DNA of 32,776 bases, taken from positions 1-32,776 of IMG/VR virus record IMGVR_UViG_3300009068_003775. One strand, 5' to 3'. Under the pieces are notes generated by a model that was not told the DNA's origin, did not search any database, and was given only the letters and a program-made list of their open reading frames with translations. The position numbers and the translations under genes are program-made. Shown here in pieces: positions 1,053 through 29,297 of this stretch (position 1 is the first letter of the stretch; every line of letters starts with the position of its first letter). The stretch is from a virus.

Positions 1053-1718
1053 ATGAAGAATAAATCAGTAATAGAAGATTCTGGATTCAATTATACGATC
1101 TGGCACGATTCAATAGATCCTAATTTTATTGAATTATGTTTTAAGTCTAGACTTCCAGCAAAATGGATTTCTTATGATAAAGTTAGAAATGGTAAATATA
1201 AAAATTCTTTAATAAAACCAATTAACGCATATGTCGAAAACCTTTATCCACGCCCAAAACTAATTTCAATTGAAGGAAATACTGTTACATTAAGACAAGG
1301 AAATCACGCAGAAATATATTTACAAACAAGAAAAGAAGGTTTGTACAATGTAGATAGACCCTGGATGAGACAGTATTATAAGACAAAGCCATTTGATATA
1401 ATTCCAGATGGGTGTTTCTCAGACTCATTTAAATTTTATGTTCCTTGGTTTATTGATGAAAACATTAAGGTATCAATTAAGCAAGCAGAGAACTCCCCAT
1501 TTTTTATATACGAAAAAGACTTTAACAGCAAAAAAATAGTAGATTACGTACCATTTGTAGAGCCAGAGTTTGTAAGTTTTCACTTTAAAAACAGTGGTAG
1601 CCATATTGTCTATGACGGATTTGGCAAAATTAAAAAACAGTCCCCAATGTTTGATATGGTTTTTGAGGCTGATGGTATAATGGTTAATGAAATTAGGGAG
1701 TTTTATGAGCAAAGTTAA
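1053..1718 (+). CDS. Hypothetical protein, divergent relative of the next two genes
   Basis: 221 residues. The C-terminal part carries a segment GFGKIKKQSPMFDMVFEAD that lines up with the FVGTIKKGTPIFQMIPFKR segment of the gene at 2424 and its partner at 1705, so this looks like a diverged third member of the same family. The N-terminal half has an IP-W-like segment (RLPAKWISYDK) where the relatives have IP-WYK. The start codon abuts the previous stop and the stop overlaps the next start by 14 nt, indicating translational coupling. Function unknown. Confidence 0.6.
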   Translation: MKNKSVIEDSGFNYTIWHDSIDPNFIELCFKSRLPAKWISYDKVRNGKYKNSLIKPINAYVENLYPRPKLISIEGNTVTLRQGNHAEIYLQTRKEGLYNVDRPWMRQYYKTKPFDIIPDGCFSDSFKFYVPWFIDENIKVSIKQAENSPFFIYEKDFNSKKIVDYVPFVEPEFVSFHFKNSGSHIVYDGFGKIKKQSPMFDMVFEADGIMVNEIREFYEQS

Positions 1719-2427
1719 GTTTTATCCACATGGTGCCCAGACAGGATCTTTTGCACCAAAGCCAGTTCCAGCAACAAAGAACATACCAGACTGGTACAAG
1801 CGCCAGCGTGGAGAGGTTGATGATCAAAAAGGAATTCCAGAGGGGAATGCAACTAGCACAATAAAAAGATGTATGCCAATATACGACTCTTTGGCTGCTG
1901 GATATATTTTAAGCATGCCAATGGATCTATATCTTGATGGAACCAATCCATTAAAACTTGAATGGAACATTCCAATACCTATGCATGGATTTAAAAGTGA
2001 CCTAGTTGCCTCTCATGATAGAAGACAATACGATCAATACCCATACGATAGAAAAAAATATCATGACGATCTGCTAAGAATTATGCCATTCTGGTCTGTA
2101 GGAACTGACGAAGGCTATAGCACAATGTTCATGCATCCTTGGCATGCAGACACAACCCCCTTGCATGCTATTGGAGCAGTAGTTGATACTGATAGATTTA
2201 TTTCAGATGGTCATTTTTCATTTCTTGTTGATAGAACCTTTAAAGGTGTTATTAAACAAGGAACCCCAATAGTTCAAGTCATTCCATTTAAAAGAGATTC
2301 TTATGAAATGGAAATTGTTGACAGTAAATCAGCAAGCATTAAAACAACACAACAAAGACTTAATGTTCGTAGTGTCTTTAAGTATGGGTATAAGACAAAG
2401 ATGAGGGTTCAAAAGGACTACAAGTGA
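1705..2427 (+). CDS. Hypothetical protein, possible beta-barrel fold (DUF6065-like)
   Basis: 240 residues from the ATG at 1705, chosen over the in-frame ATG at 1687 because AGGGAG (1695-1700) lies just before it. Motifs shared with the next gene, in order: NIPDWYK, CMPIYDSLAAGY, GYS..FMHP, an acidic VVDTDR, and FKGVIKQGTPIVQVIPFKR near the C-terminus. The last two resemble the dUTPase/dCTP-deaminase pattern (a product-loop Asp followed by G-I-KG--I-Q), which may mean a related fold, but the sequence is not a canonical dUTPase. I associate the pattern with DUF6065 from memory. Function unknown; position before a glycosyltransferase suggests a role in the same pathway. Confidence 0.6.
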   Translation: MSKVKFYPHGAQTGSFAPKPVPATKNIPDWYKRQRGEVDDQKGIPEGNATSTIKRCMPIYDSLAAGYILSMPMDLYLDGTNPLKLEWNIPIPMHGFKSDLVASHDRRQYDQYPYDRKKYHDDLLRIMPFWSVGTDEGYSTMFMHPWHADTTPLHAIGAVVDTDRFISDGHFSFLVDRTFKGVIKQGTPIVQVIPFKRDSYEMEIVDSKSASIKTTQQRLNVRSVFKYGYKTKMRVQKDYK

Positions 2428-3194
2428 ACGATAGTTTAAAAATAACTTTTACACCTGGATTTTTAAATTATGGTGAAAAGTTAACTCCTCCAGAGCCAGC
2501 AGTAAAACATATTCCAGAGTGGTATAAGTCACTAGCAAAACATGATAGTTGGAACACTGACGACAAACTAAACCCAGTTAATCATATTGGCACAGATGGT
2601 GCACAGGTTGCAACAAAAATGTGTATGCCATTTTTTGATTCTTTATCTGCTGGCTATCAGTACTTGCTAGAAGACGATTTACATATTGGTGTTGGAGTCG
2701 ACGGAAAGCCAACATTGTCTTGGGATGGTCCAGTTATGTTAGTTGATGTGCGCCCAACAATAGATCTACCTTTGCCAAATAACTGCCATGCAGTTCATTT
2801 TGGTTGGAGAATGAACTGGTACTATGAAACACCGCCAGGATATTCCGTATTAATTACTCATCCATTAAATAGGACAGATCTTCCATTTCAGACCCTATCT
2901 GGAATTGTGGAGTCAGATATTTGGGGCCTTCCAGTTTTTACTGCATTTTTTTTACATAGAGATTTTGTAGGAACAATTAAAAAGGGAACTCCAATATTTC
3001 AAATGATTCCTTTTAAAAGAGAAAATTGGGAGATGGAAATTTTAGAAACTGAAGAAGAATTAGACAAGCATGAGTTAAAAGCAGAAAACAGAAGATCAAT
3101 GTTATACGGATATTATAAAAAAACAGCATGGAGAAAAAAACTTTTTGGCAATAAGCATTCTGATATAAAAAATATAGAGCATGACGATGAATGA
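2424..3194 (+). CDS. Hypothetical protein, paralogue of the preceding gene
   Basis: 256 residues, GTG start overlapping the previous stop (GTGA). It repeats the motif order of its neighbour: HIPEWYK, CMPFFDSLSAGY, GYSVLITHP, IVESD, FVGTIKKGTPIFQMIPFKR, then EMEI. A longer, Lys/Glu-rich C-terminal tail is unique to this copy. The two were probably made by tandem duplication, with 1053-1718 as an older, diverged copy. Function is unknown; coupling to the glycosyltransferase at 3187 suggests a shared pathway. Confidence 0.6.
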   Translation: MNDSLKITFTPGFLNYGEKLTPPEPAVKHIPEWYKSLAKHDSWNTDDKLNPVNHIGTDGAQVATKMCMPFFDSLSAGYQYLLEDDLHIGVGVDGKPTLSWDGPVMLVDVRPTIDLPLPNNCHAVHFGWRMNWYYETPPGYSVLITHPLNRTDLPFQTLSGIVESDIWGLPVFTAFFLHRDFVGTIKKGTPIFQMIPFKRENWEMEILETEEELDKHELKAENRRSMLYGYYKKTAWRKKLFGNKHSDIKNIEHDDE

Positions 3195-4041
3195 TATTAC
3201 AGTAATAATCTATTCATATAAAGGCAAGTTTTTAAAAGATACTATTGATTCTATACTTTATAAATCTACAAATAAAATTAATATAATTCTTTATGATCAA
3301 AACCCATTAGACAGAACAAATTATTTTAAAGAGTATGAATATCTTTCTTACAACTCAATCTGGTGGGATTTACAGAAGAGTCCTTGCTCCTATAAAAACA
3401 ATTCAATAAATAGGTCCAACTCAGAATATACTTTAATGATTTGTGACAATATAAAACTCAAGCCTGGTTGGGACAAAGATCTTATAGATTTTGTAAAAGA
3501 CAAAGACATTGTTGTTTCTGGACAAGACTTTAATAAGTTTTTCCACAAAGATAATTTCTATCTTGGTATAGATAAAGAATTATCTAATGATTTTTTAATT
3601 ACACAAATATATGATAGGGATTTTGCATTTGGTAAAACTGAGATTTTTAAAAATTTAGACTACCCTACTTTTATTAAATATGATGGAGAAAATGAAATAG
3701 TAAGTGCGCTCCTTTACACATCGGGCATAGATATATATTCAATGCCAAGCCAGAGTTATTTAAAGTTATCGGATGACACTATCACATCCCTTTACTGTCC
3801 ATTTTCAAAAACACATGGATATAACAGTTTTATTGATCTAATTAAAAATGGAAAATCAGAAAAAATAAATAACTTAAGAACGAATAAAACAATTAGTGAT
3901 TTTTTAACTTTTCATAATATAGATAAAGATAGAATTAATAGGCTTCCATTCCCAAAGACTGACGTAGAGTATGATGGAAGACAGGTTTTCTCGGGTGTCA
4001 AAGGAGAAAGATTTATTGGCCGTGTAAAGAAAATAGTGTAA
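3187..4041 (+). CDS. GT-A glycosyltransferase, family 2-like
   Basis: About 284 residues from ATG 3187 (an in-frame ATG at 3181 is possible; both overlap the previous gene). The N-terminus is a Rossmann-like beta strand with VIIYSYKG, then LKDTIDSIL and INIILYDQNP, as in GT-A enzymes that start with a nucleotide-sugar-binding strand. The acidic metal-site region reads MICDNIKLKPGWD (residues about 84-96), matching the pattern of GT families with a variant DxD followed by GWD. It would transfer a sugar from an NDP donor to an unknown acceptor. No membrane segment, so cytoplasmic. Confidence 0.65.
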   Translation: MNDITVIIYSYKGKFLKDTIDSILYKSTNKINIILYDQNPLDRTNYFKEYEYLSYNSIWWDLQKSPCSYKNNSINRSNSEYTLMICDNIKLKPGWDKDLIDFVKDKDIVVSGQDFNKFFHKDNFYLGIDKELSNDFLITQIYDRDFAFGKTEIFKNLDYPTFIKYDGENEIVSALLYTSGIDIYSMPSQSYLKLSDDTITSLYCPFSKTHGYNSFIDLIKNGKSEKINNLRTNKTISDFLTFHNIDKDRINRLPFPKTDVEYDGRQVFSGVKGERFIGRVKKIV

Positions 4042-4044
4042 TGG

Positions 4045-4063
4045 TATAATAAAGTATGGAGGA
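4045..4063 (+). promoter_or_regulatory. -10 box TATAAT and strong RBS for the gene at 4067
   Basis: TATAAT at 4045-4050 sits in the context ATGGTATAAT, and GGAGGA at 4058-4063 is 3 nt before the ATG. No convincing -35 box is visible. It would start an internal transcript for the oxygenase/SGNH/carbamoyltransferase genes. Confidence 0.55.
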
Positions 4064-4066
4064 AAA

Positions 4067-4669
4067 ATGCATAGAATAAAAATTATAGAAAATTTTATAT
4101 CGCCAGAGGATGCTGAAATTTTAATAAGTCAGCAGAATGACCCATTTGCCATAAGAGATCCATATCCAGATTATTATGCAGACAGGTTTGGTGGAACGTC
4201 TTTGCCATACAACAAAACCGTTATGGATATTATGGTTAAATATGGAAACTTATCTAATGAGGTTCATAGGGAGCAAAATGGTTTTGTTAATCCTATATAC
4301 GTATTCAAAGGTTTTGGATCTCACTGGATCAAAGGAACAAAAGGTGGACTACACATAGATGCACAAGGTCCTGAGCCATTCATTGAATTTAGTACTATCT
4401 TGTACCTAAATGAAGAACCAGATTACTCTGGAGGAAAAATATATTTTCCAAATCAAAATTTTGAATATCAACCTAAAAAATATTCAGCAGTATTTTTTCC
4501 AGGTGCTGGATCTGAATACATACACGGCATAACAACGGTTACAGAGGGTCATAGGTATACTGCTTTATTTATGCACACATCAATGCCAGAGCATGCAGAT
4601 CCAGATTTTTTAGGTGAAGATAAAAGTCCACAATGGGAAGCAATGAGGTATCCACTTGCAAAACTTTGA
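4067..4669 (+). CDS. 2OG/Fe(II)-dependent oxygenase, prolyl-4-hydroxylase type
   Basis: 200 residues with the double-stranded beta-helix signature of the family: iron ligands His96-x-Asp98 (GLHID) and His153 (YIHG), and Arg163 (GHRYTALF) for 2-oxoglutarate. The linking strand LYLNEEPDYSGGKIYFP and the turn FFPGAGSEYIHG are typical of prolyl hydroxylase-like enzymes. It would hydroxylate an unknown substrate using O2 and 2-oxoglutarate. It has its own -10 box and RBS and overlaps the next oxygenase gene by 14 nt. Confidence 0.85.
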   Translation: MHRIKIIENFISPEDAEILISQQNDPFAIRDPYPDYYADRFGGTSLPYNKTVMDIMVKYGNLSNEVHREQNGFVNPIYVFKGFGSHWIKGTKGGLHIDAQGPEPFIEFSTILYLNEEPDYSGGKIYFPNQNFEYQPKKYSAVFFPGAGSEYIHGITTVTEGHRYTALFMHTSMPEHADPDFLGEDKSPQWEAMRYPLAKL

Positions 4670-5327
4670 TTATGAAATACTAGATTTAGGTTTGGTTTAC
4701 TATAAAAATATAGTTAAAGACCCAGAAAAATTAATAAAAATTATTGAGCAACTTGATAAAAAAATAACTCAAACTCCTCAATCTATTGAGGGCACATCAG
4801 CAAGACCATGGACACCTTGGCAATACAATAAAGGAAATGAAACACTACAGTTTTGTTTGCAAAAATTTATTCCACAGGTTTCTGATATAGGTCCAGATGA
4901 TATTTATAGAGATGAACAACTAACTATTTCTTCAGAACTTTTTGGTGCATTAGAAAAAACTTTACTTCACTACTCTAGTGTTCTTTATCCATTTGCAGAA
5001 AAAAATATCAAATCAAGAGAAAGAACTATGCATTTGTTAAAATATGAGAATGATGGATATTTGCCAGCACATCAAGATCAAGGGGTTAGCACAAGAGTTT
5101 TATCTGTTTTGCTGTACCTAAATAACGACTACGAAGGCGGAGAAATAACTTTTCAGAATTCAAACATAACTCTAAAGCCTGATCCAGGGAGCATATTGTT
5201 TTTCCCATCAAATTTCTTGTATGTTCATGAAGTTGCTCCAATTACAAAGGGTCCAAGGTATGCTTTACCAAACTGGTACCACAATGTAACTCAAGAATCT
5301 TTTAGAAATTCAACAGGAGAAGAATGA
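4656..5327 (+). CDS. 2OG/Fe(II)-dependent oxygenase, prolyl-4-hydroxylase type
   Basis: 223 residues from a TTG start inside the end of the previous gene. Ligands: His139-x-Asp141 (AHQD), His191 (YVHEV) and Arg201 (GPRYALPNW). The strand LLYLNNDYEGGEITF is the family hallmark and is shared nearly word for word with the oxygenases at 17678 and 19136. The stop codon overlaps the next ATG (ATGA). The pair with 4067-4669 suggests two hydroxylations in one pathway. A start further downstream is possible, but no ATG offers the full N-terminus. Confidence 0.85.
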   Translation: MQNFDYEILDLGLVYYKNIVKDPEKLIKIIEQLDKKITQTPQSIEGTSARPWTPWQYNKGNETLQFCLQKFIPQVSDIGPDDIYRDEQLTISSELFGALEKTLLHYSSVLYPFAEKNIKSRERTMHLLKYENDGYLPAHQDQGVSTRVLSVLLYLNNDYEGGEITFQNSNITLKPDPGSILFFPSNFLYVHEVAPITKGPRYALPNWYHNVTQESFRNSTGEE

Positions 5328-5410
5328 AAAAAATAATTAAAAACATTAAATTCTTTATTTGGAAAATTAAAAATAGAAAAAAAATAAAGCCAAGAGGATT
5401 TACTTATTAA
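5324..5410 (+). CDS. 28-residue basic peptide gene
   Basis: ATG at 5324 overlaps the TGA of the oxygenase gene (ATGA) and the frame ends with TAA at 5408-5410, one base before the next ATG at 5412. The product (MKKIIKNIKFFIWKIKNRKK, then IKPRGFTY) is very Lys/Arg-rich and amphipathic. Perfect coupling on both sides argues for a real gene or a translational bridge. A similar small basic reading frame occurs at 8598-8705. Confidence 0.5.
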   Translation: MKKIIKNIKFFIWKIKNRKKIKPRGFTY

Positions 5411-5411
5411 A

Positions 5412-6296
5412 ATGAATAATAAAATAAATAACCCAGAAGAATACCCAAATGGAGAAAAATACGTAGTTAATTATTTGTTAAAAAACAAAGAAAAGGGTTT
5501 GCTATTTGCTACACACGGAACTAACAAAGGAGTCAAAGCACTAAGGCCAAAGATGCAAAACGACACCGCAATATATAGTTTAAATTCTGGATATTTTAGG
5601 TCAGACGAGTTTAACAAAAGAGACAGTGGTGGAAAAACAGTTCTTTTTGCTGGATGCTCTGTAATGTACGGAGAGGGCCATGACCTTGAGACATCTTTTG
5701 CGTACATACTTTATGAGCATTTATCAAAAAAAGAAAAACTGTCTGGATTTTTTAATATTGGCATAGGTGGCGCTACTGGATTTCAATGTATTACCTCTAT
5801 TTTTGATTATATAGATATCTATGGCAACCCAGACTCAATAGTTTTGCTTTTGCCACCACTTGAAAGAGATATGGCGTATTTTCTTAGTTATGGTAAAGGG
5901 TTTTGGGAAACTCAGTATAGAGATTCTAGAGACCAAAAAGATGCAGAAGAAGATTACAAAAGACATGTTGTACTTTTTAATCATATATATAAAATGTTGT
6001 ATTTATATTGCAAAACAAACAACATTACTTTAATAAGTTCTCATTGGGGAGAATATAAAGGTAAGGCAGTTAACATTTTTAAAAATTATCAATATACTTT
6101 TGAGCAAATGTTAGAAATTTTATATCCAGACACACATAAAAGACTAAACTATGAAATGATGCATGATGATATTTATAACTACATTCAATTAAATAAAAAT
6201 ATGGAAAATTTATTAGAAGCAAAAGATGGACAACATCAAGGAATTGCTTGGAACCATGCTGTTGCTAAACAAATAATAGAAATGTTTAAACTTTAA
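5412..6296 (+). CDS. SGNH/GDSL-type hydrolase
   Basis: 294 residues. Block I is VLFAGCSVMYGEG with the probable nucleophile Ser83; block II is NIGIGGATGFQC with the oxyanion Gly; block V is DGQHQG (Asp272, His275). These are the features of SGNH esterases and acyl transferases that remove or add acyl groups on sugars and other small molecules. There is no signal peptide. It sits between two oxygenases and a carbamoyltransferase, and its stop overlaps the next start by one base, so it probably acts in the same modification pathway. Confidence 0.7.
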   Translation: MNNKINNPEEYPNGEKYVVNYLLKNKEKGLLFATHGTNKGVKALRPKMQNDTAIYSLNSGYFRSDEFNKRDSGGKTVLFAGCSVMYGEGHDLETSFAYILYEHLSKKEKLSGFFNIGIGGATGFQCITSIFDYIDIYGNPDSIVLLLPPLERDMAYFLSYGKGFWETQYRDSRDQKDAEEDYKRHVVLFNHIYKMLYLYCKTNNITLISSHWGEYKGKAVNIFKNYQYTFEQMLEILYPDTHKRLNYEMMHDDIYNYIQLNKNMENLLEAKDGQHQGIAWNHAVAKQIIEMFKL

Positions 6297-7717
6297 TGAT
6301 TATTCTTGGGATTAATGAAACTTCACACGATGCTTCTGTATCATTGATTCAGAATGGAAATATATTATTTTCAGGGCATGCTGAAAGATATAGCAAACAA
6401 AAAAATGATTGGTATGTCAATGATAGTTTAATAAAAGATGCTTTACAATATGGAAGACCAGATCATATAGCCTACTACGAAAAACCTCTTCTAAAGGCCT
6501 CTAGACTGGCTTTAAGGGGTGGTTCTGGAGAATGGAAGCCAAGGTTTGAACTTCCTGGGATTCCAAGAAAATCTTTTACTCATCACTATTCCCACGCAGC
6601 AGCAGGATATTATACGAGTGCATTTAATGATGCAGTCATTGTTGTTTTAGATGCTATAGGTGAATACAATACCTCCACAATCTGGGTAGGTGAAGGTGAC
6701 AAGATTAAATTAAAATATAAGCAAAACTACCCAGTAAGTTTTGGGTTGTTCTACTCTGCATTTACACAACTAATTGGTCTTATGCCAAACCAAGAAGAAT
6801 ATATTATGATGGGTATGGCTGCTTACGGAGATTGGACAAAATATTATAAAAAAGTTGACGCATATTTTCCAAATTACGATGAGCAAAAATATAATTTTCA
6901 TAAGGGAATTACTGATTGGGGATGGGTTTCAGAACAAGATAAATTTGATATCGCAGCAGCGGTACAAATGGTATATGAGCAAAGACTAAATCAATTTATG
7001 CGTATGGCAAAATCCCTAACTGGTAAAAATAATTTAGTATTCATGGGTGGGTGTGCTCTTAACTCTTCAGCAAATACATTACTATGGAATATTTTTGATA
7101 TGATTTGGATAATGCCAAACCCTGGAGATGCTGGAAGTTCGCTTGGTGCAGCAGCAGCACTATATGGCAAACATCTTGAATGGAAAGATCCATACTTAGG
7201 TCACGATTTAGGCGGGGAATACCCAGTAAATTCAATAGTTGCTGGACTAATTAGAGATAAGATAGTAGCCGTAGCAAGCGGAAGAGCAGAATATGGTCCA
7301 AGAGCCCTGGGCAATAGAAGTATCTTGGCAGATCCTAGAGACCCAGATATTAAAGATAAGGTAAATCTAATTAAGCAGAGAGAACTTTTTAGGCCATTTG
7401 CTCCTGTTGTTATGGAAGAGTATGCAGGAAAGTGGTTTGATATGGATTTTGATTCTCCATACATGCAGTACACAGTTAAATGCTTACAGCCAGAAAAAAT
7501 ACCAGCAGTTGTACATGAAGATGGAACCTCAAGGGTTCAGACAGTAAACAAGCAGCAGCACCCAGGACTTTATGAAGTGCTGTCTAACTGGTACACAATT
7601 ACTGGCGTTCCCATCCTATTGAACACTAGTCTAAATATTAAAGGTCAACCACTACTCAACGATGAGTCTGATATTTTAGACTGGGAAAAAGAATATAACT
7701 TTACAGTATGCAGGTAA
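6296..7717 (+). CDS. O-carbamoyltransferase, NodU/CmcH/TobZ family
   Basis: 473 residues. N-terminal ASKHA-type domain: GINETSHDAS (5-14), HHYSHAAAGYYTS (from 96), VLDAIGE (Asp119) and MGGCALNSSAN. C-terminal YrdC-like domain: EYGPRALGNRSILADPR, ELFRPFAPVVMEE, AVVHEDGTSRVQTV and TGVPILLNTSLNIKGQP, all hallmarks of the family. Members make carbamoyl-adenylate from carbamoyl phosphate and ATP and pass the carbamoyl group to a hydroxyl on a sugar, antibiotic or (in some phages) a modified base. It is compact for the family. Last gene of the tailoring run; a promoter for the endolysin overlaps its end. Confidence 0.92.
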   Translation: MIILGINETSHDASVSLIQNGNILFSGHAERYSKQKNDWYVNDSLIKDALQYGRPDHIAYYEKPLLKASRLALRGGSGEWKPRFELPGIPRKSFTHHYSHAAAGYYTSAFNDAVIVVLDAIGEYNTSTIWVGEGDKIKLKYKQNYPVSFGLFYSAFTQLIGLMPNQEEYIMMGMAAYGDWTKYYKKVDAYFPNYDEQKYNFHKGITDWGWVSEQDKFDIAAAVQMVYEQRLNQFMRMAKSLTGKNNLVFMGGCALNSSANTLLWNIFDMIWIMPNPGDAGSSLGAAAALYGKHLEWKDPYLGHDLGGEYPVNSIVAGLIRDKIVAVASGRAEYGPRALGNRSILADPRDPDIKDKVNLIKQRELFRPFAPVVMEEYAGKWFDMDFDSPYMQYTVKCLQPEKIPAVVHEDGTSRVQTVNKQQHPGLYEVLSNWYTITGVPILLNTSLNIKGQPLLNDESDILDWEKEYNFTVCR

Positions 7718-7753: not shown

Positions 7754-8398
7754 ATGGCAGCAAAAGGATCAGTAGAAGCAATCATTGAGGTTGCAAAGAA
7801 AGAAGTAGGAACAATTGAAGGCCCTAAAGATAACGAAACAAAGTACGGTGCATGGATTAAGGTTAACTTTCAGCCATGGTGTCAGTCATTTGTTTCTTGG
7901 GCAGCATTTACTGCGGGAGTAAAATCATTCCCTAAGTCTGCATCAACAGTTCAAGCAGCAGACTGGTTCAAGAAGGCTGAGCGTTGGTCAGATGCTCGCA
8001 ATGATGATCCACAAGCAGGAGACTGGATCTATTTTGATTTCCCAGAAGATGGCGTAAATCGTATTTCACATGTTGGTATTTGTATTAAGAACAACGGTGA
8101 CGGAACTATTCAAGTTATTGAAGGAAATACTTCAGGAACTGCTAAGGGAGATCAGCGCAATGGCGGAATGTGTGTAGAGAAGACTCGTGGTTATGTAAAG
8201 AACAATAAAAAGAAGTTGGTTAACGCTGTAGTTGGTTGGGGTCGTCCAGTTTACGCTGGAGAAGAAAATGCTCCACTACTAAACAAGTTAGAAGCAACAC
8301 CTGTTAAGACTACAACTGCAGATGCTGCAAAGAAAGCAGCAAAGCCATTAGTAAAAAAGTCTTCTGGTGGCGGAGGAAAGGGACCAGTGGCTCTATAA
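7754..8398 (+). CDS. CHAP-domain endolysin (peptidoglycan hydrolase)
   Basis: 214 residues. CHAP core: Cys43 in PWCQSFVSWA, His106 in RISHVGIC, Glu123/Asn125 in VIEGNTS, giving the Cys-His-Glu/Asn papain-like site that cuts peptidoglycan amide or peptide bonds. A Lys/Ala-rich linker follows residue 175 and the protein ends KKSSGGGGKGPVAL, a tail almost identical to that of the holin-like protein at 17331-17630. No signal peptide, as expected for a holin-dependent endolysin. It uses CGT/CGC Arg codons more than nearby genes, which prefer AGA. Promoter and AAAGGAGG precede it; the stop overlaps the next start by one base. Confidence 0.88.
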   Translation: MAAKGSVEAIIEVAKKEVGTIEGPKDNETKYGAWIKVNFQPWCQSFVSWAAFTAGVKSFPKSASTVQAADWFKKAERWSDARNDDPQAGDWIYFDFPEDGVNRISHVGICIKNNGDGTIQVIEGNTSGTAKGDQRNGGMCVEKTRGYVKNNKKKLVNAVVGWGRPVYAGEENAPLLNKLEATPVKTTTADAAKKAAKPLVKKSSGGGGKGPVAL

Positions 8399-9137: not shown

Positions 9138-9704
9138 ATGAATAAAATTTCTGAAACATTTAATCTTTTGCTGCACAAAAAATATGATATTTCAGAGATT
9201 AAAAACCATATATTAAAGTATGATTCCGAGTGGGATCTTGATGTGTCCAGACAAAAAAATGTAATGCATAAAGAAACAAAATCTATTTTTTTATATAAGG
9301 CTGATTTGGGTTGGGATGGAAACTCTCCTTACCAAGTTTCTGAGATTTTGATTGATCTAGAATTAAAGGCTTTATTAAGTCCAATAATATCTGATTTTGA
9401 AAAAATTCATAATGGTAAAGTTGGACATGCATTAATTGTAAAACTATATCCTGAAAAATCAGTAGGCAAGCACCAAGATAATGGATACTATCTTTTGAAC
9501 TCAAGAAGGCACCATCTTCCAATAGTTTCTGACGGACTTACAGAGTTTACAGTAAACAAAGAAACTGTCAGAATGCAAGAAGGAGAATGTTGGGAAATTA
9601 ATAATGCAAAGTTTCACTCTGCAGAAAATAAAGGATCCCAAGAAAGAATACATTTTATTTTTGATATAGTCCCAAACGAGATAATAGAAAAGAGTAACAA
9701 ATGA
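9138..9704 (+). CDS. Aspartyl/asparaginyl beta-hydroxylase-like oxygenase
   Basis: 188 residues. His112-x-Asp114 (GKHQDN), RRHHLPIV, then EGECWEINNAKFHSAEN with His160, and Arg170 in RIHFIFDIV. The pattern HQDNG...RHHLPI...G--WE-NN---H---N fits the Asp/Asn beta-hydroxylase family of 2OG/Fe(II) enzymes rather than the prolyl-hydroxylase type found elsewhere in the window. The Asp in HxD is unusual for the animal enzyme (which has one iron ligand fewer) but common in bacterial members. Its last codons overlap the next gene by 4 nt. Confidence 0.75.
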   Translation: MNKISETFNLLLHKKYDISEIKNHILKYDSEWDLDVSRQKNVMHKETKSIFLYKADLGWDGNSPYQVSEILIDLELKALLSPIISDFEKIHNGKVGHALIVKLYPEKSVGKHQDNGYYLLNSRRHHLPIVSDGLTEFTVNKETVRMQEGECWEINNAKFHSAENKGSQERIHFIFDIVPNEIIEKSNK

Positions 9705-12244: not shown

Positions 12245-14209
12245 ATGAAAATTAAATCATTACTAATATCGTTTTTTTTACTATTTCAATTTGCTCCAAG
12301 TTGTTCTGCCGTATATGGTGGAGAGTCTGCAAGTGGAAGTGTAAAGGTTGTTGGGTTTTTAGAAAACAAGGATAGCAATACTACTATCTGCTCTGGTGCA
12401 CTAATCTCAAGTCGTATTGCCGTGTCTGTTGCACACTGTTTTTTAAATAGACCAAATATGTGGGCTTTAACTCCAGGAGAAAGTGTAAACGATGGTTCTA
12501 AAGTTTTCAAAGTTGAAAAGGTTGTATTTGTTCCAGGCTACAAGTGGTCTTGGAATCCAGAAACTCAGGACTTGGGTGGATTAAAAGACGATTTTGTTTT
12601 TGTTATCTTTGCAGAAGATGTTGTTGTAAATTATCATGTAGATATTGCAAACAAAGAAGATGTTAAAAACATTAAAGAAAACAAATCCCCCCTAGTCCTT
12701 TATGGTTACGGACTAACAAGTAACAGTAGTAAAAGTGGCAATCCTAGAAAAGTAAAAAGTTTGCCAAGATTAAAAAGTGTTTCTGGATCTGAGCAGTGGT
12801 CAAGTTATCCAGGTGAGGACAAAGTCCTTGGATTTACAGAAGAACTAAAGAATGCCATATGCTCTGGTGATTCTGGAGGTCCAGTATACAGCGGAGATAA
12901 GATTGTTGCTGTAATGAATACAGGGAACGGATGTGGTCCAACAGAAGTTGCTAATGGAGGAATGTCTACACTAATATATCAATATCTGTATTTGATATCT
13001 GACATATACAAACAGCCTTCTAAAATTACTTTAGATAATCTAGATACGGATTTGACATCATCTCTGTCCTATTCAAAAATAAATAATTTTTCAGATGCTC
13101 AAAATGACATAACATTTCGCAGCAATTTATTTTTAAGCCCTACGGTTGGCAATCGACCATACAAGTTGTACCTAGAAGGATTAGAAAAAAGCGTAAAGTT
13201 TTGGTCACCAATTTATAAAAATCCAGAATTTTCTATTGTTTTATTTACTGAAGAAGATTCCGAATGGGTTGATGCAATTCAAACAAGACTAATGGGTAAA
13301 AGTTTAATAAATCCAAGACAGCAACTACAAAGTTTTAGAATTAAGGAAAGTGGATGTAATGTAGGTGGATTTTATTATCCTTCAATTATTATGTTTTGTG
13401 TAAAAACTGAAAGTGAGTTGTCATCAAACAAAATTCACAAATACTCAGCACTACATGCATTCCCACATGAGTTTACTCACCTTGTGGCTATGTGGAGTCC
13501 AGAGGCATCAGTTTTTCCATATGGGACTAACCAAAGGTTGCTGCCTTGTTGGATTAACGAAGGCTTTGCTACATTTTTTGGTATTGCTCTTGGGGCATCT
13601 AATCAAGATCCGCTTGGATATAATCGATTAGAATTTTTTAATTCGCTTACGTATCCATATGATATGAAAAGAAATCAAGAAGTAGGAACTATAAAAAAAC
13701 TCTTACTTAAGAATGATCCATCAGTTGTTATAAATCTTTTTAAGGAACTTGAGGTAACCATGGATACATGTTCAGAATCACAAAATGCCTATGTCCTGGG
13801 TGGTTTAGCAACTGAAGCAATAGTCGCAACTTATGGAGCAGAATCAATAATTAAATTTCAACAGGAGTTTGGAAAAACTGGTAACTGGAAGCCTGCATTT
13901 CAGAAAGTATTTGGAGTTAGTTCGGAAGAGTTTTACACAAAAATAACACCGTATCTTAGCAGCCAAGCAAAAAAGTTTGATAGGCCAACACCAACTCCAA
14001 CGCCTGTTCCAACAGTAACAGCAGAACCAAGACCAGAACCGACACAACAATCTATACCTTTAACAAGGGAAACTCTTGTAGAAATTTTAGTTGTTAGTGT
14101 TGATAAAAAAATAAAAAAACAAACATCAATCACTTGTTATAAAAACAAGTCAACAAAAAAGGTAACAGGATTTAATCCAGTGTGCCCTAAAGGATGGACA
14201 AAAAAATGA
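12245..14209 (+). CDS. Secreted trypsin-like protease fused to HExxH metallopeptidase domain
   Basis: 654 residues. Signal peptide at about 1-21. Residues 22-255: chymotrypsin-fold domain with His64 (SVAHC), Asp116 (KDDFVF) and Ser210 (CSGDSGGP). Residues about 300-560: HEFTH (408-412) with a downstream Glu439 in WINEG, the pattern of gluzincin zinc metallopeptidases. Then a Pro/Thr linker (PTPTPTPVPT) and a C-terminal two-Cys motif (TSITCYKNKSTKKVTGFNPVC, then PKGWTKK) that I recall from actinobacterial secreted proteins. It likely cuts envelope or extracellular proteins. RBS AAGGAAAAT. Confidence 0.8.
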   Translation: MKIKSLLISFFLLFQFAPSCSAVYGGESASGSVKVVGFLENKDSNTTICSGALISSRIAVSVAHCFLNRPNMWALTPGESVNDGSKVFKVEKVVFVPGYKWSWNPETQDLGGLKDDFVFVIFAEDVVVNYHVDIANKEDVKNIKENKSPLVLYGYGLTSNSSKSGNPRKVKSLPRLKSVSGSEQWSSYPGEDKVLGFTEELKNAICSGDSGGPVYSGDKIVAVMNTGNGCGPTEVANGGMSTLIYQYLYLISDIYKQPSKITLDNLDTDLTSSLSYSKINNFSDAQNDITFRSNLFLSPTVGNRPYKLYLEGLEKSVKFWSPIYKNPEFSIVLFTEEDSEWVDAIQTRLMGKSLINPRQQLQSFRIKESGCNVGGFYYPSIIMFCVKTESELSSNKIHKYSALHAFPHEFTHLVAMWSPEASVFPYGTNQRLLPCWINEGFATFFGIALGASNQDPLGYNRLEFFNSLTYPYDMKRNQEVGTIKKLLLKNDPSVVINLFKELEVTMDTCSESQNAYVLGGLATEAIVATYGAESIIKFQQEFGKTGNWKPAFQKVFGVSSEEFYTKITPYLSSQAKKFDRPTPTPTPVPTVTAEPRPEPTQQSIPLTRETLVEILVVSVDKKIKKQTSITCYKNKSTKKVTGFNPVCPKGWTKK

Positions 14210-14701: not shown

Positions 14702-14941
14702 ATGTATACGGATTCAATGAAAAGGGCTTTTAGATCTCTTACACCTCCCAAAAATTTTTCTTTACAGATTATTGACAATGATAATTTTTTAACAGTAAAG
14801 GCTAAAGAAAAAGATTTTATGTCTTTAGAAACAGTTGAACTTAAAAAACAGGCTATAGAATATATGATACGTGTAAAAAAGGCATTGGAAGATAATGGCG
14901 CTATAGTTTTACTAGTTCGTGAAGGTGGGAAAGAGATTTGA
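14702..14941 (+). CDS. Hypothetical protein preceding the halogenase
   Basis: 79 residues, alpha/beta by composition: strand-like FSLQIIDNDNFLTVKAKE, helix METVELKKQAIEYMIRVKKALEDNG, strand AIVLLVREGG. No family recognised. The TGA overlaps the TTG start of the halogenase (TTGA), so the two are translationally coupled and may be functionally linked. Confidence 0.6.
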   Translation: MYTDSMKRAFRSLTPPKNFSLQIIDNDNFLTVKAKEKDFMSLETVELKKQAIEYMIRVKKALEDNGAIVLLVREGGKEI

Positions 14942-16455
14942 AAAATATAGTTGTAGTTGGTGGAGGTACAGCAGGATGGTTAACAGCCCTTGCTGCACAG
15001 AAAAGATATCCTGAGTGCTCAATCACTGTAATAGAGAGCAGAGAGATAGGAATTCTTGGAGCAGGAGAGGCATCGACCACATCTCTTATTGGATTTTTAG
15101 AATATTTAGATATAGCAATTGAAGATTTAATCAAAGAAACAAGATCAACAATAAAGGTAGCAATTAAGTTTAATAATTTTAATGAAGATGATGAAAGTTA
15201 TTATCACGAGTTTGCTATTAATAGGCCTAACCCAAAAGCAAAAGAACTTTATTTAAAAAATAAACTAGGCAGTAGTTATCCCGTTCTGCATCTTTCTTGT
15301 ATGTCAGAAAATTTGCCAGAAAAAGAATACAAATTAAGCGCCATGGCATTAGATTCAAACAATTTGCCATTTGTAAGTAAAAATGAAAATCCATCAAAAA
15401 TATCAGACTTTGAAGTATATAACTTATACGGAATACATTTTGACGCAAGAGCCTTGGCTAAGTTTCTATCAGAAATTGCAATAGATCGTGGAGTGATTCA
15501 CATAGATTCAATAGTAGATGAGTTTATTCAAGATAATGATGGAAACATAGAAAGTATCAAGTTGATCGATGGCTCCACAATCATGTCAGACTTTGTTTTT
15601 GATTGCACTGGGTTTGCTAGAATAATAAATAAAAAACTTTTTAATACAGAATGGGTAAGTTTTTCAAACAATTTACCAGCCAAAAGAGCAGTGCCATTTT
15701 TTCTTGATATTGATAAAGATGAAATGCCAGCATACACAGAGTCTACTGCCATGAACTATGGCTGGATGTGGAAAATTCCTTTACAGCATAGATATGGTTG
15801 TGGATATGTTTTTGATTCTAATTATATAACTGACGAACAAGCCATATTGGAGATTGAAGAAAAACTAGGGCATAAGATTGAATCTCCAAAAACATTTAGT
15901 TTTGAACCAGGGTACTACAAGACAATATGGAATAAAAATACTATAGCGGTAGGTCTTTCAGCAGGGTTTGTTGAACCTTTAGAGGCAACATCAATTATGC
16001 AGTCTGTAGAAACTCTTAGCCTTATTTTTAAAAATAACTATGATATATTTAATCCAAAGGGTTTAGTTGCAATACTTAATAAAAAATATGCTGAAGATTG
16101 TGAAGAAATTCGTGACTTTTTGTACTTGCACTATATGACAAACAAAACTAATACAGAATTTTGGGCTAATTTTACTAAAAATAATACGATGCCAGAAAGT
16201 CTCAAGACTACTCTTGAAACACTTAATGCTATAGAATATGGTGAACTAAGAAACCCTTACTTTAATAAAATAAATTATTATATTATTATGTATGGAAATA
16301 AAATATTAGATAAAGAGTTTTTAAAAGAAGTTAAAAGTATTTTTGAATCAGAAAAAAATACAATAAAAAAAATTAATAAAAATAAAAAAGATTTATCAAA
16401 CAGTTTTGTTAATCATTCTGAATTTATTAAGAGGGTTGGTGGTTTTAATGAATAA
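14938..16455 (+). CDS. Flavin-dependent (tryptophan-type) halogenase
   Basis: 505 residues, TTG start. FAD site VVVGGGTAGWLTA (residues 5-17); catalytic-lysine region STIKVAIKF (Lys73, matching Lys79 of PrnA); FDCTGFAR; halogenase signature WMWKIP (Trp276-Pro281), which separates these enzymes from monooxygenases; and GLSAGFVEPLEATSI, where Glu349-Ala-Thr351 aligns with Glu346-Ser-Thr348 of PrnA near the chloride site (the following Gly is Ser here). Such enzymes make HOCl/HOBr from FADH2, O2 and halide and halogenate aromatic substrates. Needs a flavin reductase, not seen here. A phage halogenase, VirX1 from a marine cyanophage, is a known precedent. Confidence 0.92.
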   Translation: MKNIVVVGGGTAGWLTALAAQKRYPECSITVIESREIGILGAGEASTTSLIGFLEYLDIAIEDLIKETRSTIKVAIKFNNFNEDDESYYHEFAINRPNPKAKELYLKNKLGSSYPVLHLSCMSENLPEKEYKLSAMALDSNNLPFVSKNENPSKISDFEVYNLYGIHFDARALAKFLSEIAIDRGVIHIDSIVDEFIQDNDGNIESIKLIDGSTIMSDFVFDCTGFARIINKKLFNTEWVSFSNNLPAKRAVPFFLDIDKDEMPAYTESTAMNYGWMWKIPLQHRYGCGYVFDSNYITDEQAILEIEEKLGHKIESPKTFSFEPGYYKTIWNKNTIAVGLSAGFVEPLEATSIMQSVETLSLIFKNNYDIFNPKGLVAILNKKYAEDCEEIRDFLYLHYMTNKTNTEFWANFTKNNTMPESLKTTLETLNAIEYGELRNPYFNKINYYIIMYGNKILDKEFLKEVKSIFESEKNTIKKINKNKKDLSNSFVNHSEFIKRVGGFNE

Positions 16456-17330: not shown

Positions 17331-17630
17331 ATGAATACAACACAACTAAAGGCAATGCTTGCATCATACGGACGATCAGTCCTTGGTGCTGCAATTGCAC
17401 TGTACGCTTCTGGCGTAACAGATCCAAAGACACTTGCTTACTCATTGCTTGGAGCCATCGTGCCCGTAGCAATTAGAGCAGTCAACCCTAACGATTCGGC
17501 ATTTGGCAAGTTGCCATCTGCAGAAGAGGTAGACAAGGCAGTTAAGACTGCTAAGGTTGTAAAGAAGACCGCAAAGAAGGCTCCTGCAAAGAAGTCATCT
17601 GGCGGAGGAAAAGGCAATGTTGCATTATAA
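17331..17630 (+). CDS. Candidate holin with the endolysin-type C-terminal tail
   Basis: 99 residues with RBS AGGAGG 8 nt upstream. SVLGAAIALYASGV and TLAYSLLGAIVPVAIRAV form one or two membrane segments, followed by a Lys/Ala-rich stretch (VKTAKVVKKTAKKAPAKK) and the terminal SSGGGKGNVAL. The last 13 residues nearly equal the end of the CHAP endolysin (KKSSGGGGKGPVAL), though the codons differ. Codon use is more GC-rich than nearby genes, as expected for a strongly expressed late gene. Last gene before a terminator. Confidence 0.6.
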   Translation: MNTTQLKAMLASYGRSVLGAAIALYASGVTDPKTLAYSLLGAIVPVAIRAVNPNDSAFGKLPSAEEVDKAVKTAKVVKKTAKKAPAKKSSGGGKGNVAL

Positions 17631-17677: not shown

Positions 17678-18391
17678 TTAAATTTCTCCAAAATTATCAT
17701 CAAAAACATATTTTAAATCAGACTGATAATATTTATTTGGATCTAACATTGAACTCCTATTTGCTCTTTCTTTTTCTGTCATAAAATTAAAGAATGTTAC
17801 CAATGTATATCTTTTATTACCACTAGTAACTGGATATATCTTATGCTCGTAACTATAGGCTGCTGGAAATAAAAATAATTGCCCTGCTTTTGGCTTAATT
17901 TTAATTCCAAAATGAATGAACTCTAGTTCTCCGCCCTCGTAATCATCATTTGGGTAATAAACAAGTGCTGTAGTTCTTGGTGTAGCAAAAGTATCATCTG
18001 CATGCATTGAAAAAAAATCACTGTTGCTATATTTTGTAATTCTCAATGACTCTCTGCTGTGTGGATCTAAATCCCAATGCCAAAGATATGAGTCTACTAC
18101 CTCTTCAAGTGCATCTTTAACTTCTTCACTATTCCAAATCCAGCAAGTTGATGCTCGTTTTCCAACTTCTTCATCTAAATAGTCTTCTCTTATCCATTGC
18201 TTTTTACCAGATACGTTATTCTGAGCATCCCAGAATTCTTCAGTATCTAATTTTTTAAAAAAATCAAGAGATGTTTCCCAAACATTGTCATAAATATGAA
18301 GTCCTGGGATTGGCGAAGTGTATGAAAATTTGTTTCCTTTTCTACTTTCGGTAACATTTTTAGTTACATTGTTTAATTTATTCTTATCCAT
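17678..18391 (-). CDS. 2OG/Fe(II)-dependent oxygenase, prolyl-4-hydroxylase type
   Basis: 237 residues. His130-x-Asp132 (SMHADD), His183 (YEHKIYPV) and Arg194 (NKRYTLVTFFNF) are the iron and co-substrate ligands; VYYPNDDYEGGELEF and KIKPKAGQLFLFPA are close to segments in the oxygenases at 4656 and 19136. RBS AAGGAG before the ATG and TATAAT (complement of 18415-18420) about 23 nt upstream. It is the only minus-strand gene here and stands back to back with the dehydrogenase gene. Substrate unknown. Confidence 0.88.
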   Translation of the reverse strand: MDKNKLNNVTKNVTESRKGNKFSYTSPIPGLHIYDNVWETSLDFFKKLDTEEFWDAQNNVSGKKQWIREDYLDEEVGKRASTCWIWNSEEVKDALEEVVDSYLWHWDLDPHSRESLRITKYSNSDFFSMHADDTFATPRTTALVYYPNDDYEGGELEFIHFGIKIKPKAGQLFLFPAAYSYEHKIYPVTSGNKRYTLVTFFNFMTEKERANRSSMLDPNKYYQSDLKYVFDDNFGEI

Positions 18392-19135: not shown

Positions 19136-19795
19136 ATGCAAATAGACTCAATTTCAGAAAAAATTGGCAATAAAGAAAACAATATAAGAATCATAGATGA
19201 TTTTATTACAAATGATGACAGGCTTGCAATTTTAGAATACTGCAAAAAAATGGCAAACTCAGAAGGAAAGACTGCTTTTTATAGTATGCCAATGAGTAGT
19301 GAACTTAAGCATTTATATTTAAAGTATACAAGGAAGATGATTCAGAGCGCTGAAGACTTCTATAATGATATCTGCCCAATAACAAAGTATGATTTGCCAA
19401 ACGATGATAATGATCCTTCTTGGTCTGATCACCATGTCTTTGCAGCAGGAATACTTTGTCATCCACCAAAATCTTTTATGCATCCACATATAGATGTTGT
19501 TGGGTTTGTTCAAGAAGAGGGCTACAACATGCCAGATCCAGAAAGCAAATGGTCAGGACATCTTTCTTCGGTTATATATCTTAATGATGACTATGAAGGT
19601 GGAGAGTTGTATTTTAAAGATAGAGGAGTATACATTAAGCCAAAAGCAGGACAACTAATTGGGTTTCCTGGCAATAGACACTACAAGCACGGAGTTACTG
19701 AGATTATTGGCAAAGATAGATTTACCCTATCCAGTTGGTTACGTTTTGAAGAGGCTAATGGTAAAGAACTATATTCTTACGGTATTGAAAAATGA
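19136..19795 (+). CDS. 2OG/Fe(II)-dependent oxygenase, prolyl-4-hydroxylase type
   Basis: 219 residues. His118-x-Asp120 (HPHID), His185 (YKHGVTEI) and Arg195 (KDRFTLSSWLRF). VIYLNDDYEGGELYF and YIKPKAGQLIGFPGN are typical. RBS AGGAGA upstream of the ATG; the stop overlaps the next start (ATGA). Most like the enzyme at 17678, across the divergent promoter, and probably derived from a common ancestor with it. Confidence 0.9.
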   Translation: MQIDSISEKIGNKENNIRIIDDFITNDDRLAILEYCKKMANSEGKTAFYSMPMSSELKHLYLKYTRKMIQSAEDFYNDICPITKYDLPNDDNDPSWSDHHVFAAGILCHPPKSFMHPHIDVVGFVQEEGYNMPDPESKWSGHLSSVIYLNDDYEGGELYFKDRGVYIKPKAGQLIGFPGNRHYKHGVTEIIGKDRFTLSSWLRFEEANGKELYSYGIEK

Positions 19796-20551: not shown

Positions 20552-21211
20552 ATGAAAATTCTTATTAACTCCTATCCAAGATCAGGTACAACTACGCTTG
20601 TAGATGCAATTCGAGCAGCAACAATTTCAAAAAACTTAATGTTTGGAGAAGATTTTTTTCATAATGAAGATTGGATATCTAAGTCTCATTTGCCTGTATT
20701 GTTTTTAGGAACATTCCCATCAGATGTATTAATAGGAACTGTTATACGAGACCCACTTGACGCTATATCCTCTAATTGTTTTAGATGGGTCAATGGGTAT
20801 ACTGGTAATATTGTACAGGGAAAGGTTGTTATTGATAAAAGTAGAGAATCAAAAGAAAATAAATTTGACAAAGAAGTTATGTCATTAATCGATCACCAAG
20901 TAAATCAGTATATATCTTATTACTCATGTCTGCTTTCAAACATAGATAAAATTTTATTGTTCCGATATGACAAAATACAAAATGATATAGATAGTGCAAT
21001 TAACAGAGTTGTTTCTGCAGCGGGTGGGAACAAGGAATCATTAAACTACACCGCTGCACAAAAAGTTATAAAAAATCCACCACAACCAACCAAAGAAAAA
21101 ACAGTTCTTTACTTTAAGATAAGAGAGCATATAAAATCACTTACAACTTTAAACGATGCTTATCGTTTATATGATGAAGCACTAAGAATAGAAAAGGATA
21201 AAAATGAATAA
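20552..21211 (+). CDS. PAPS-dependent sulfotransferase family protein
   Basis: 219 residues. SYPRSGTTTL (7-16) is the 5'-phosphosulfate loop and GTVIRDPLDAISSN (Arg66, Asp67, Pro68, with following Ser) is the 3'-phosphate-binding motif of PAPS sulfotransferases. It would move sulphate from PAPS to a hydroxyl or amine. It lies between two methylase genes; no clear RBS precedes the ATG, 10 nt after the previous stop. A distant relative is encoded at 24431-25000 on the other strand. Confidence 0.85.
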   Translation: MKILINSYPRSGTTTLVDAIRAATISKNLMFGEDFFHNEDWISKSHLPVLFLGTFPSDVLIGTVIRDPLDAISSNCFRWVNGYTGNIVQGKVVIDKSRESKENKFDKEVMSLIDHQVNQYISYYSCLLSNIDKILLFRYDKIQNDIDSAINRVVSAAGGNKESLNYTAAQKVIKNPPQPTKEKTVLYFKIREHIKSLTTLNDAYRLYDEALRIEKDKNE

Positions 21212-28541: not shown

Positions 28542-28682
28542 TCACTCAAAATCAACCTGAGCCTCAAACATATCTAATGTTATTGGAGTTGATGCGTCAT
28601 CATCCATAGCCCCACAAACAGCACAGGTTACCTGGCCATCAAGGTCTAATTGGTAGTCGCACCCATACTTTGTACATGTCAT
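28542..28682 (-). CDS. 46-residue Cys-rich protein
   Basis: MTCTKYGCDYQLDLDGQVTC continues AVCGAMDDDASTPITLDMFE and AQVDFE. Four Cys (C3, C8, C20, C23) could bind zinc; acidic C-terminus. Leaderless start: TATGAT (complement of 28689-28694), six bases, ATG. Divergent from 28719. Confidence 0.65.
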   Translation of the reverse strand: MTCTKYGCDYQLDLDGQVTCAVCGAMDDDASTPITLDMFEAQVDFE

Positions 28683-28718
28683 ATATACATCATACCACTT
28701 CATGGTATACTTGTCAAT

Positions 28719-29297
28719 ATGGAGCCAGTAAGAGTATTAAAAAATTCTATAAACAGTGAAGATGCTGAATTTATAATTAATTATATAAACAAAAATCAAG
28801 ATTCTTTTATTACTGGACCAAAAAGACTAAGATTCCAAAAAATGTTTGGAGATGACAAATTTCACAAACAACAATCAGCAAAAATTATTACTGGTATAGA
28901 CGAAATACAAAACAAAATAGAAACAATTATTAATCTTTCAGTAAAATCTATATCAGATGAATTTAAGGATAATCAACAATTATATCTTTCATCGTTTTGG
29001 TTAGCAAAACAATTACCTGGCGCTCAAGTTAGTGGACACTTAGACACAGACTCTGGGTTTAATGATCATTACGAATACAGCGCTATATTGTACTTAAATA
29101 CTCCTAACAACTCTGGCCCATTGGAGTTCCCGTACCTTAGTCTGGAAATTATGCCCATGTCTGGAGATTTAGTTATATTTAAGTCGGCGGAAAATACATC
29201 TTTTCATGAAGTAAAATTTATAAATGAAGACAGGTACTCGGTCCTTTTGTGGTTTACTAAGGATAAAAATTATGAATTAAAGTTCGGCGAAAAATAG
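28719..29297 (+). CDS. 2OG/Fe(II)-dependent oxygenase, prolyl-4-hydroxylase type
   Basis: 192 residues from ATG 28719. An earlier in-frame ATG at 28650 is rejected because it lies in the divergent gene and TATACT (28706-28711) ends 7 nt before 28719. His107-x-Asp109 (SGHLDTD), His163 (SFHEVKF) and Arg172 (EDRYSVLLWF). The middle strand reads AILYLNTPNNSGPLEFP instead of YEGGE, so it is its own subgroup. Substrate unknown. Confidence 0.82.
   Translation: MEPVRVLKNSINSEDAEFIINYINKNQDSFITGPKRLRFQKMFGDDKFHKQQSAKIITGIDEIQNKIETIINLSVKSISDEFKDNQQLYLSSFWLAKQLPGAQVSGHLDTDSGFNDHYEYSAILYLNTPNNSGPLEFPYLSLEIMPMSGDLVIFKSAENTSFHEVKFINEDRYSVLLWFTKDKNYELKFGEK

Follow-up and report, generated by a model that had tools for sequence, protein, structure and literature searches.

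A conserved module of oxygenase, glycosyltransferase and carbamoyltransferase genes in freshwater phages: a candidate system for decorating surface proteins or glycans

The virus fragment IMGVR_UViG_3300009068_003775 from IMG/VR (32,776 bases; "the window" below means this whole stretch) contains a block of eight forward, co-directional open reading frames (ORFs) at positions 1053–7717. The block opens with three genes, A1 (1053–1718), A2 (1687–2427) and A3 (2424–3194), which are followed by GT (3181–4041), a glycosyltransferase that probably belongs to the PF11397 (N-acetylglucosamine, GlcNAc) family. Next come two 2-oxoglutarate (2OG)-Fe(II) oxygenases, the prolyl-hydroxylase-like OX1 (4067–4669) and the prolyl-4-hydroxylase-like OX2 (4656–5327), then an SGNH/GDSL-type hydrolase (5412–6296) and, finally, CT (6296–7717), an O-carbamoyltransferase of the NodU/CmcH/TobZ family. 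A preliminary description of this DNA had reported these eight genes with overlapping starts and stops; in fact, five of the seven junctions overlap, and gaps are found only between GT and OX1 (25 bases) and between OX2 and the SGNH gene (84 bases). Judged from its orthologues, A2 probably starts near position 1705. No T4-type late promoter motif was detected at the operon.

The arrangement recurs in related phages. IMG/VR was searched with A2, OX1, CT and A1 and then scanned for gene order, which yielded 168 core-bearing loci; when loci sharing more than 20% of their 31-mers were removed, 80 nonredundant loci were left. The module sequences that recur belong to freshwater phages. The order A1-A2-A3-GT-OX1 (1053–4669) is kept in 58 of the 80 loci and the same order without A2 in 18 others, so that 76 of the 80 loci retain the core order, which exceeds chance; in three loci A2 is shifted to the front of the core. 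In 68 loci, CT is found no more than 5 kb from the core (55 downstream, 13 upstream); OX2 lies within 4.5 kb in 67 and an SGNH gene within 5 kb in 34. CT, SGNH and OX2-like genes also occur in loci that lack the core. Based on these counts and on the occurrences outside the core, the conserved core comprises five genes; CT and OX2 often accompany it, and the SGNH gene, whose copy number varies, is an accessory. Thus, a tailoring module is conserved as a unit in related phages, and the alternative, that its genes occur there with no conserved association, is not borne out; the eight genes, which had been presented as one system, are not one fixed unit. In four of the inspected loci that have a gap between A3 and GT, this gap holds an unassigned protein of approx. 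220–240 amino acids with an HDH...H-like pattern, and Pfam searches with two of these proteins were blank.

Both oxygenases match PF13640 (OX2 with an E-value of 2.3e-16). In profile searches against the PDB, the top match of OX1 is prolyl 3-hydroxylase 1 (P3H1; E 3.8e-6), and the cyanophage homologue of OX1 carries a leprecan annotation. The top match of OX2 is procollagen-proline dioxygenase, a prolyl 4-hydroxylase (P4H; E 1.9e-7), whereas Tet-like proteins reach 0.0025, an approx. 10,000-fold difference in E-value. The HxD...H iron ligands are present in all 77 OX1 relatives and the 2OG-binding Arg in 76 of them; in OX2 relatives, these residues are found in 66–68 of 68. By family and by their nearest solved relatives, P3H1 and P4H, OX1 and OX2 are prolyl-hydroxylase-like enzymes, and hydroxylation of proline within a protein is their predicted reaction. 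The window carries four more oxygenase genes, at 17678–18391, 19136–19795, 28650–29297 and 9138–9704 (three of PF13640 and one of the Asp/Asn beta-hydroxylase type), a large number for 33 kb.

The match of GT to PF11397 (E 3.3e-4) is just below the cut-off; 16 of 30 GT relatives match the family at E ≤ 0.01 (best 3.7e-10), and clear PF11397 enzymes are also found near CT in three other loci (L002, L112 and L165). The family is named after the enzyme that transfers GlcNAc to a hydroxyproline of Skp1, following the action of a prolyl 4-hydroxylase. A prolyl-hydroxylase-like oxygenase directly adjoining such a glycosyltransferase suggests hydroxylation-dependent glycosylation. A resemblance of GT to GalT1, seen at 6.5e-5 with a PDB profile built from a five-member alignment, was dropped when a 30-member profile matched nothing. 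CT has both domains typical of its family, Carbam_trans_N and Carbam_trans_C (PF02543, E 2.8e-32; PF16861, E 2.9e-54). It aligns to NovN with an HHxxHA-type motif, and NovN, GdmN and TobZ are its PDB matches; carbamoyl transfer is thus predicted from the domains. CT shares 32% identity with NovN, which carbamoylates a sugar, 35–41% with C48C1 and AG-345-D19, and 24% with the validated 5-hydroxymethylcytosine (5hmC) carbamoyltransferase; accordingly, it is nearer to NovN, C48C1 and the cyanophage enzymes than to the 5hmC enzyme. The two oxygenases and the carbamoyltransferase of the preliminary description are hence borne out by Pfam. Its SGNH hydrolase stands on motifs, with Ser and His present in 88 of 88 relatives and Asp in 78; no meaningful Pfam or PDB match was obtained for this protein.

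A2 (phrog_7084, E 7.5e-38) and A3 (DUF6065, E 2.1e-5, just below the cut-off) are DUF6065/phrog_7084 proteins that share 31% identity and a profile-profile probability of 100. A1 has no family match in domain searches and aligns to A2/A3 with an hhalign probability of 91 (profiles from 77 A1 and approx. 160 A2/A3-type sequences). The supposed paralogue trio therefore consists of a clear pair, A2 and A3, and a remote relative, A1. The AlphaFold2 model of A3 (pLDDT 73) matches dCTP deaminase 2yzj (E 7.9e-5) and dUTPase 3ecy (TMt 0.72, probability 1.00) in Foldseek, as well as many dUTPases in BFVD, and a dUTPase-type beta fold, also typical of dCTP deaminases, is likely for A3. For the A1 model (pLDDT 92.5), which has a dUTPase-like beta core, Foldseek gives dUTPases as the sole matches of high probability (e.g., 1seh, probability 0.90, E 0.13), which is suggestive of the same fold. 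In the position that corresponds to dUTPase motif 3, A2 has Asp in 68 of 68 sequences and A3 has Glu in 36 and Asp in 36 of 72; in that of motif 4, A2 has Gln in 68 of 68. Outside phages, some alphaproteobacteria also carry a solitary DUF6065 gene, and no common neighbour was seen in the nine true DUF6065 loci inspected in bacteria; distant relatives often adjoin TPR proteins.

A further partner is known from the relatives, as the window starts too near the core to include the region in question. Two to six kb upstream of the core, the relatives encode a secreted protein of about 400–920 amino acids, here called the stalk protein, which has a globular part, in most cases a linker of proline-rich repeats, and in many cases a basic tail. 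Its start is signal-peptide-like where that end is complete, and in one locus (L001) the globular part is PA14-like, with an E-value of 2.1e-4 that is below the cut-off. With a profile of the C-terminal part, the stalk gene was found upstream of the core in 51 of the 55 loci with enough upstream sequence. In the remainder of those loci, hardly any proline-rich ORF is found (1 in 946 kb versus 40 in 368 kb). Upstream of the stalk gene, an Ala/Thr-rich, S-layer-like secreted phage protein is encoded (L370:18878–19900; L001:264–1412).

Taken together, the most likely role of the module is to decorate surface proteins or glycans made by the phage, and not phage DNA. The best single reading, held tentatively and at somewhat less than even confidence, is that a surface or virion protein of the phage undergoes hydroxylation-dependent glycosylation and that the sugar is then carbamoylated. 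The residue hydroxylated by OX1 and OX2 in such a phage-encoded protein would most likely be proline; GT would attach a sugar to the new hydroxyl, and CT would carbamoylate a hydroxyl of that sugar. SGNH hydrolases, where present, may edit acyl groups. We infer the residue, the sugar and the order of these steps; the gene order, the enzyme families and the catalytic residues are observed. A1–A3 would act as dUTPase-fold accessory proteins, possibly as a nucleotide- or nucleotide-sugar-binding trimer, and the first candidate for the substrate is the secreted, usually proline-rich protein observed upstream of the core in the relatives.

Several observations weigh against this reading. PF13640 takes in oxygenases with other substrates as well; the window GT scores 20.7 bits against a PF11397 cut-off of 21; and the deeper, 30-member GT profile is without any PDB match. 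The proline content of the stalk ranges from 2% to 17%, the stalk is low in proline in some module loci (e.g., L215 and L253), and no correlation was found between OX2 adjacency and stalk proline content (p = 0.25). Moreover, the association of stalk and module may be plain synteny, because proline-rich stalks also occur near CT without a nearby core (L153, L154, L157, L162 and L184). Finally, the start of the stalk is signal-peptide-like, while the enzymes show no such start by eye.

Next in order, and possible although less probable, is that the module tailors glycans of the envelope or wall: a host surface polysaccharide or glycolipid would be hydroxylated, glycosylated, carbamoylated and de-acylated, for superinfection exclusion or release. 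Such a role is often proposed for cyanophage sugar gene clusters. CT genes lie among sugar-metabolism genes in S-CAM1 and adjoin a UDP-sugar dehydrogenase-type gene in HTVC008M, CT and SGNH genes are found together without the core, and one locus (L003) has extra glycosyltransferases beside the module (group 1, CAP59-like and a weak Stealth match). However, OX1 and OX2 resemble protein hydroxylases, a protein acceptor is known for the GT family, and no nucleotide-sugar synthesis genes were found among the window genes searched.

It is unlikely that the module belongs to a nucleotide or small-molecule pathway, in which the dUTPase-like A1–A3 would act on or carry a nucleotide, a nucleotide-sugar or a modified nucleoside built by the other enzymes. 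The dUTPase/dCTP deaminase fold modelled for A3, and more weakly for A1, is consistent with this proposal, as are the invariant motif-3-like Asp and motif-4-like Gln of A2. The sequence profiles of A2/A3, however, align to dUTPase with an hhalign probability of just 20%, the best of the tested set (unrelated module families used as controls, ≤2.5%), and lone relatives in haloarchaeal viruses lie near tail fibre and adhesin genes.

Hypermodification of DNA, in which an oxygenase would make a hydroxymethyl base that GT and CT then glycosylate or carbamoylate, is the least probable of all and can be given little credence: a phage 5hmC carbamoyltransferase is known (PMC8670742) and OX2 has a weak Tet_JBP score, but CT is distant from that enzyme, OX2 resembles prolyl hydroxylases more than Tet, and PF00303 (thymidylate-synthase-type) was found neither in the window, as the preliminary description had noted, nor in 20 related contigs of 90–125 kb, which are incomplete. 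A thymidylate-synthase-type route is ruled against by this missing family. The same related contigs yielded no PF00692 dUTPase, a result that is uninformative alone as to whether A1–A3 replace a resident dUTPase. Hence DNA modification, an option that had been left open, appears unlikely from gene content and homology, and decoration of the virion or envelope remains.

The likely host group is Actinobacteria, because a WhiB-like gene is present in the window and in 30 of the 80 core loci, and whiB is regarded as an actinophage indicator (PMC10202952). Host identification by way of a secreted Ala/Thr protein was abandoned: its one match (38%) lies at a contig end of a small actinobacterial genome and may stem from phage DNA included in the assembly; no such protein was found in 100 genomes of the matched actinobacterium's family. 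The module is usually flanked by two genes that lie outside it, both on the forward strand. Upstream is an Ntn-hydrolase-like gene of the proteasome type (294–818; PF00227, E 2.4e-5), the product of which begins M-T-C and which is found in 59 of the 80 nonredundant loci. Downstream is a CHAP-type endolysin (7754–8398; PF05257, E 1.6e-11, and PHROG endolysins). The endolysin and a small protein at 17331–17630 both end in a KKSSGGG(G)KGxVAL tail, and a similar tail is found on the endolysins of relatives. Elsewhere, the window encodes a trypsin-like protein (12245–14209; PF00089, E 6.8e-19) with a signal-peptide-like start and, by eye, a second peptidase-like region; a tryptophan-halogenase family protein (14938–16455; PF04820, E 8e-103), seen in just three of the 80 related loci; and a tetrapyrrole-methylase-family pair (PF00590; 19792–20541 and 21204–21977) adjoined by a sulfotransferase-like gene (20552–21211).

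A search of 50,697 deposited phage records returned nothing for GT or A1 and, for A3, distant matches only, of which nearly all are in haloarchaeal viruses; for CT and OX1, relatives at 27–41% identity are found in cyanophages and pelagiphages, among others. A literature search turned up neither a description of the module nor a publication on DUF6065 or on C48C1. The module is thus real and conserved and, as GT and A1 are unmatched in these records, apparently undescribed, in agreement with its earlier designation as the best candidate for an undescribed system. If the favoured reading is true, this would be the first phage route of hydroxylation-dependent glycosylation known to us, orphan 2OG oxygenases, many of them in aquatic phages, would gain a testable substrate class, and DUF6065 would gain a structural home beside the dUTPases.

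Parts of the module resemble systems that are already known. The carbamoyltransferase (Nol) genes of cyanophages and pelagiphages (PMC3037559) belong to the CT family and share its phage context, with 2OG oxygenases elsewhere in the genomes; their products are 28–33% identical to CT, and the other module proteins were not found in the isolate regions examined. The 5hmC system discovered by MetaGPA (PMC8670742) likewise relies on a phage carbamoyltransferase with the same Pfam pair. On modified contigs, that enzyme is accompanied by thymidylate synthase, and on unmodified ones, carbamoyltransferase genes adjoin others such as glycosyltransferase genes (PMC8670742); here, in contrast to the 5hmC system, identity is low, no thymidylate-synthase-type partner was found, and a glycosyltransferase lies near CT, as in the unmodified contigs. 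The antibiotic sugar carbamoyltransferases NovN, GdmN and TobZ have both CT domains, whereas the phage protein is shorter (473 amino acids) and no antibiotic scaffold genes were seen beside it. We know of no hydroxylase or carbamoyltransferase in the virion glycosylation of mycobacteriophages. Glycosylated virions of these phages, as indicated by a citation in PMC12691614 (Freeman et al. 2023), nevertheless exemplify the glycosylation of virion proteins in phages that infect Actinobacteria, which are also the likely hosts here. In the Skp1 pathway of Dictyostelium, the prolyl hydroxylase acts first and Gnt1 follows (PMC3515798); the module similarly combines a prolyl-hydroxylase-type oxygenase with a probable member of the PF11397-type GlcNAc-transferase family, but it is a phage operon that also includes a carbamoyltransferase and dUTPase-fold proteins, and its hydroxyproline is only predicted. 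In its fullest form, which is doubtful as a whole, the proposal is that phages, probably of freshwater Actinobacteria, run hydroxyproline-linked protein glycosylation with carbamoylated sugars on their own proline-rich stalk, with the participation of a dUTPase-fold (hetero)trimer; this would be the prokaryotic-virus equivalent of the Skp1 pathway and of the hydroxyproline-glycoprotein pathways of plants.

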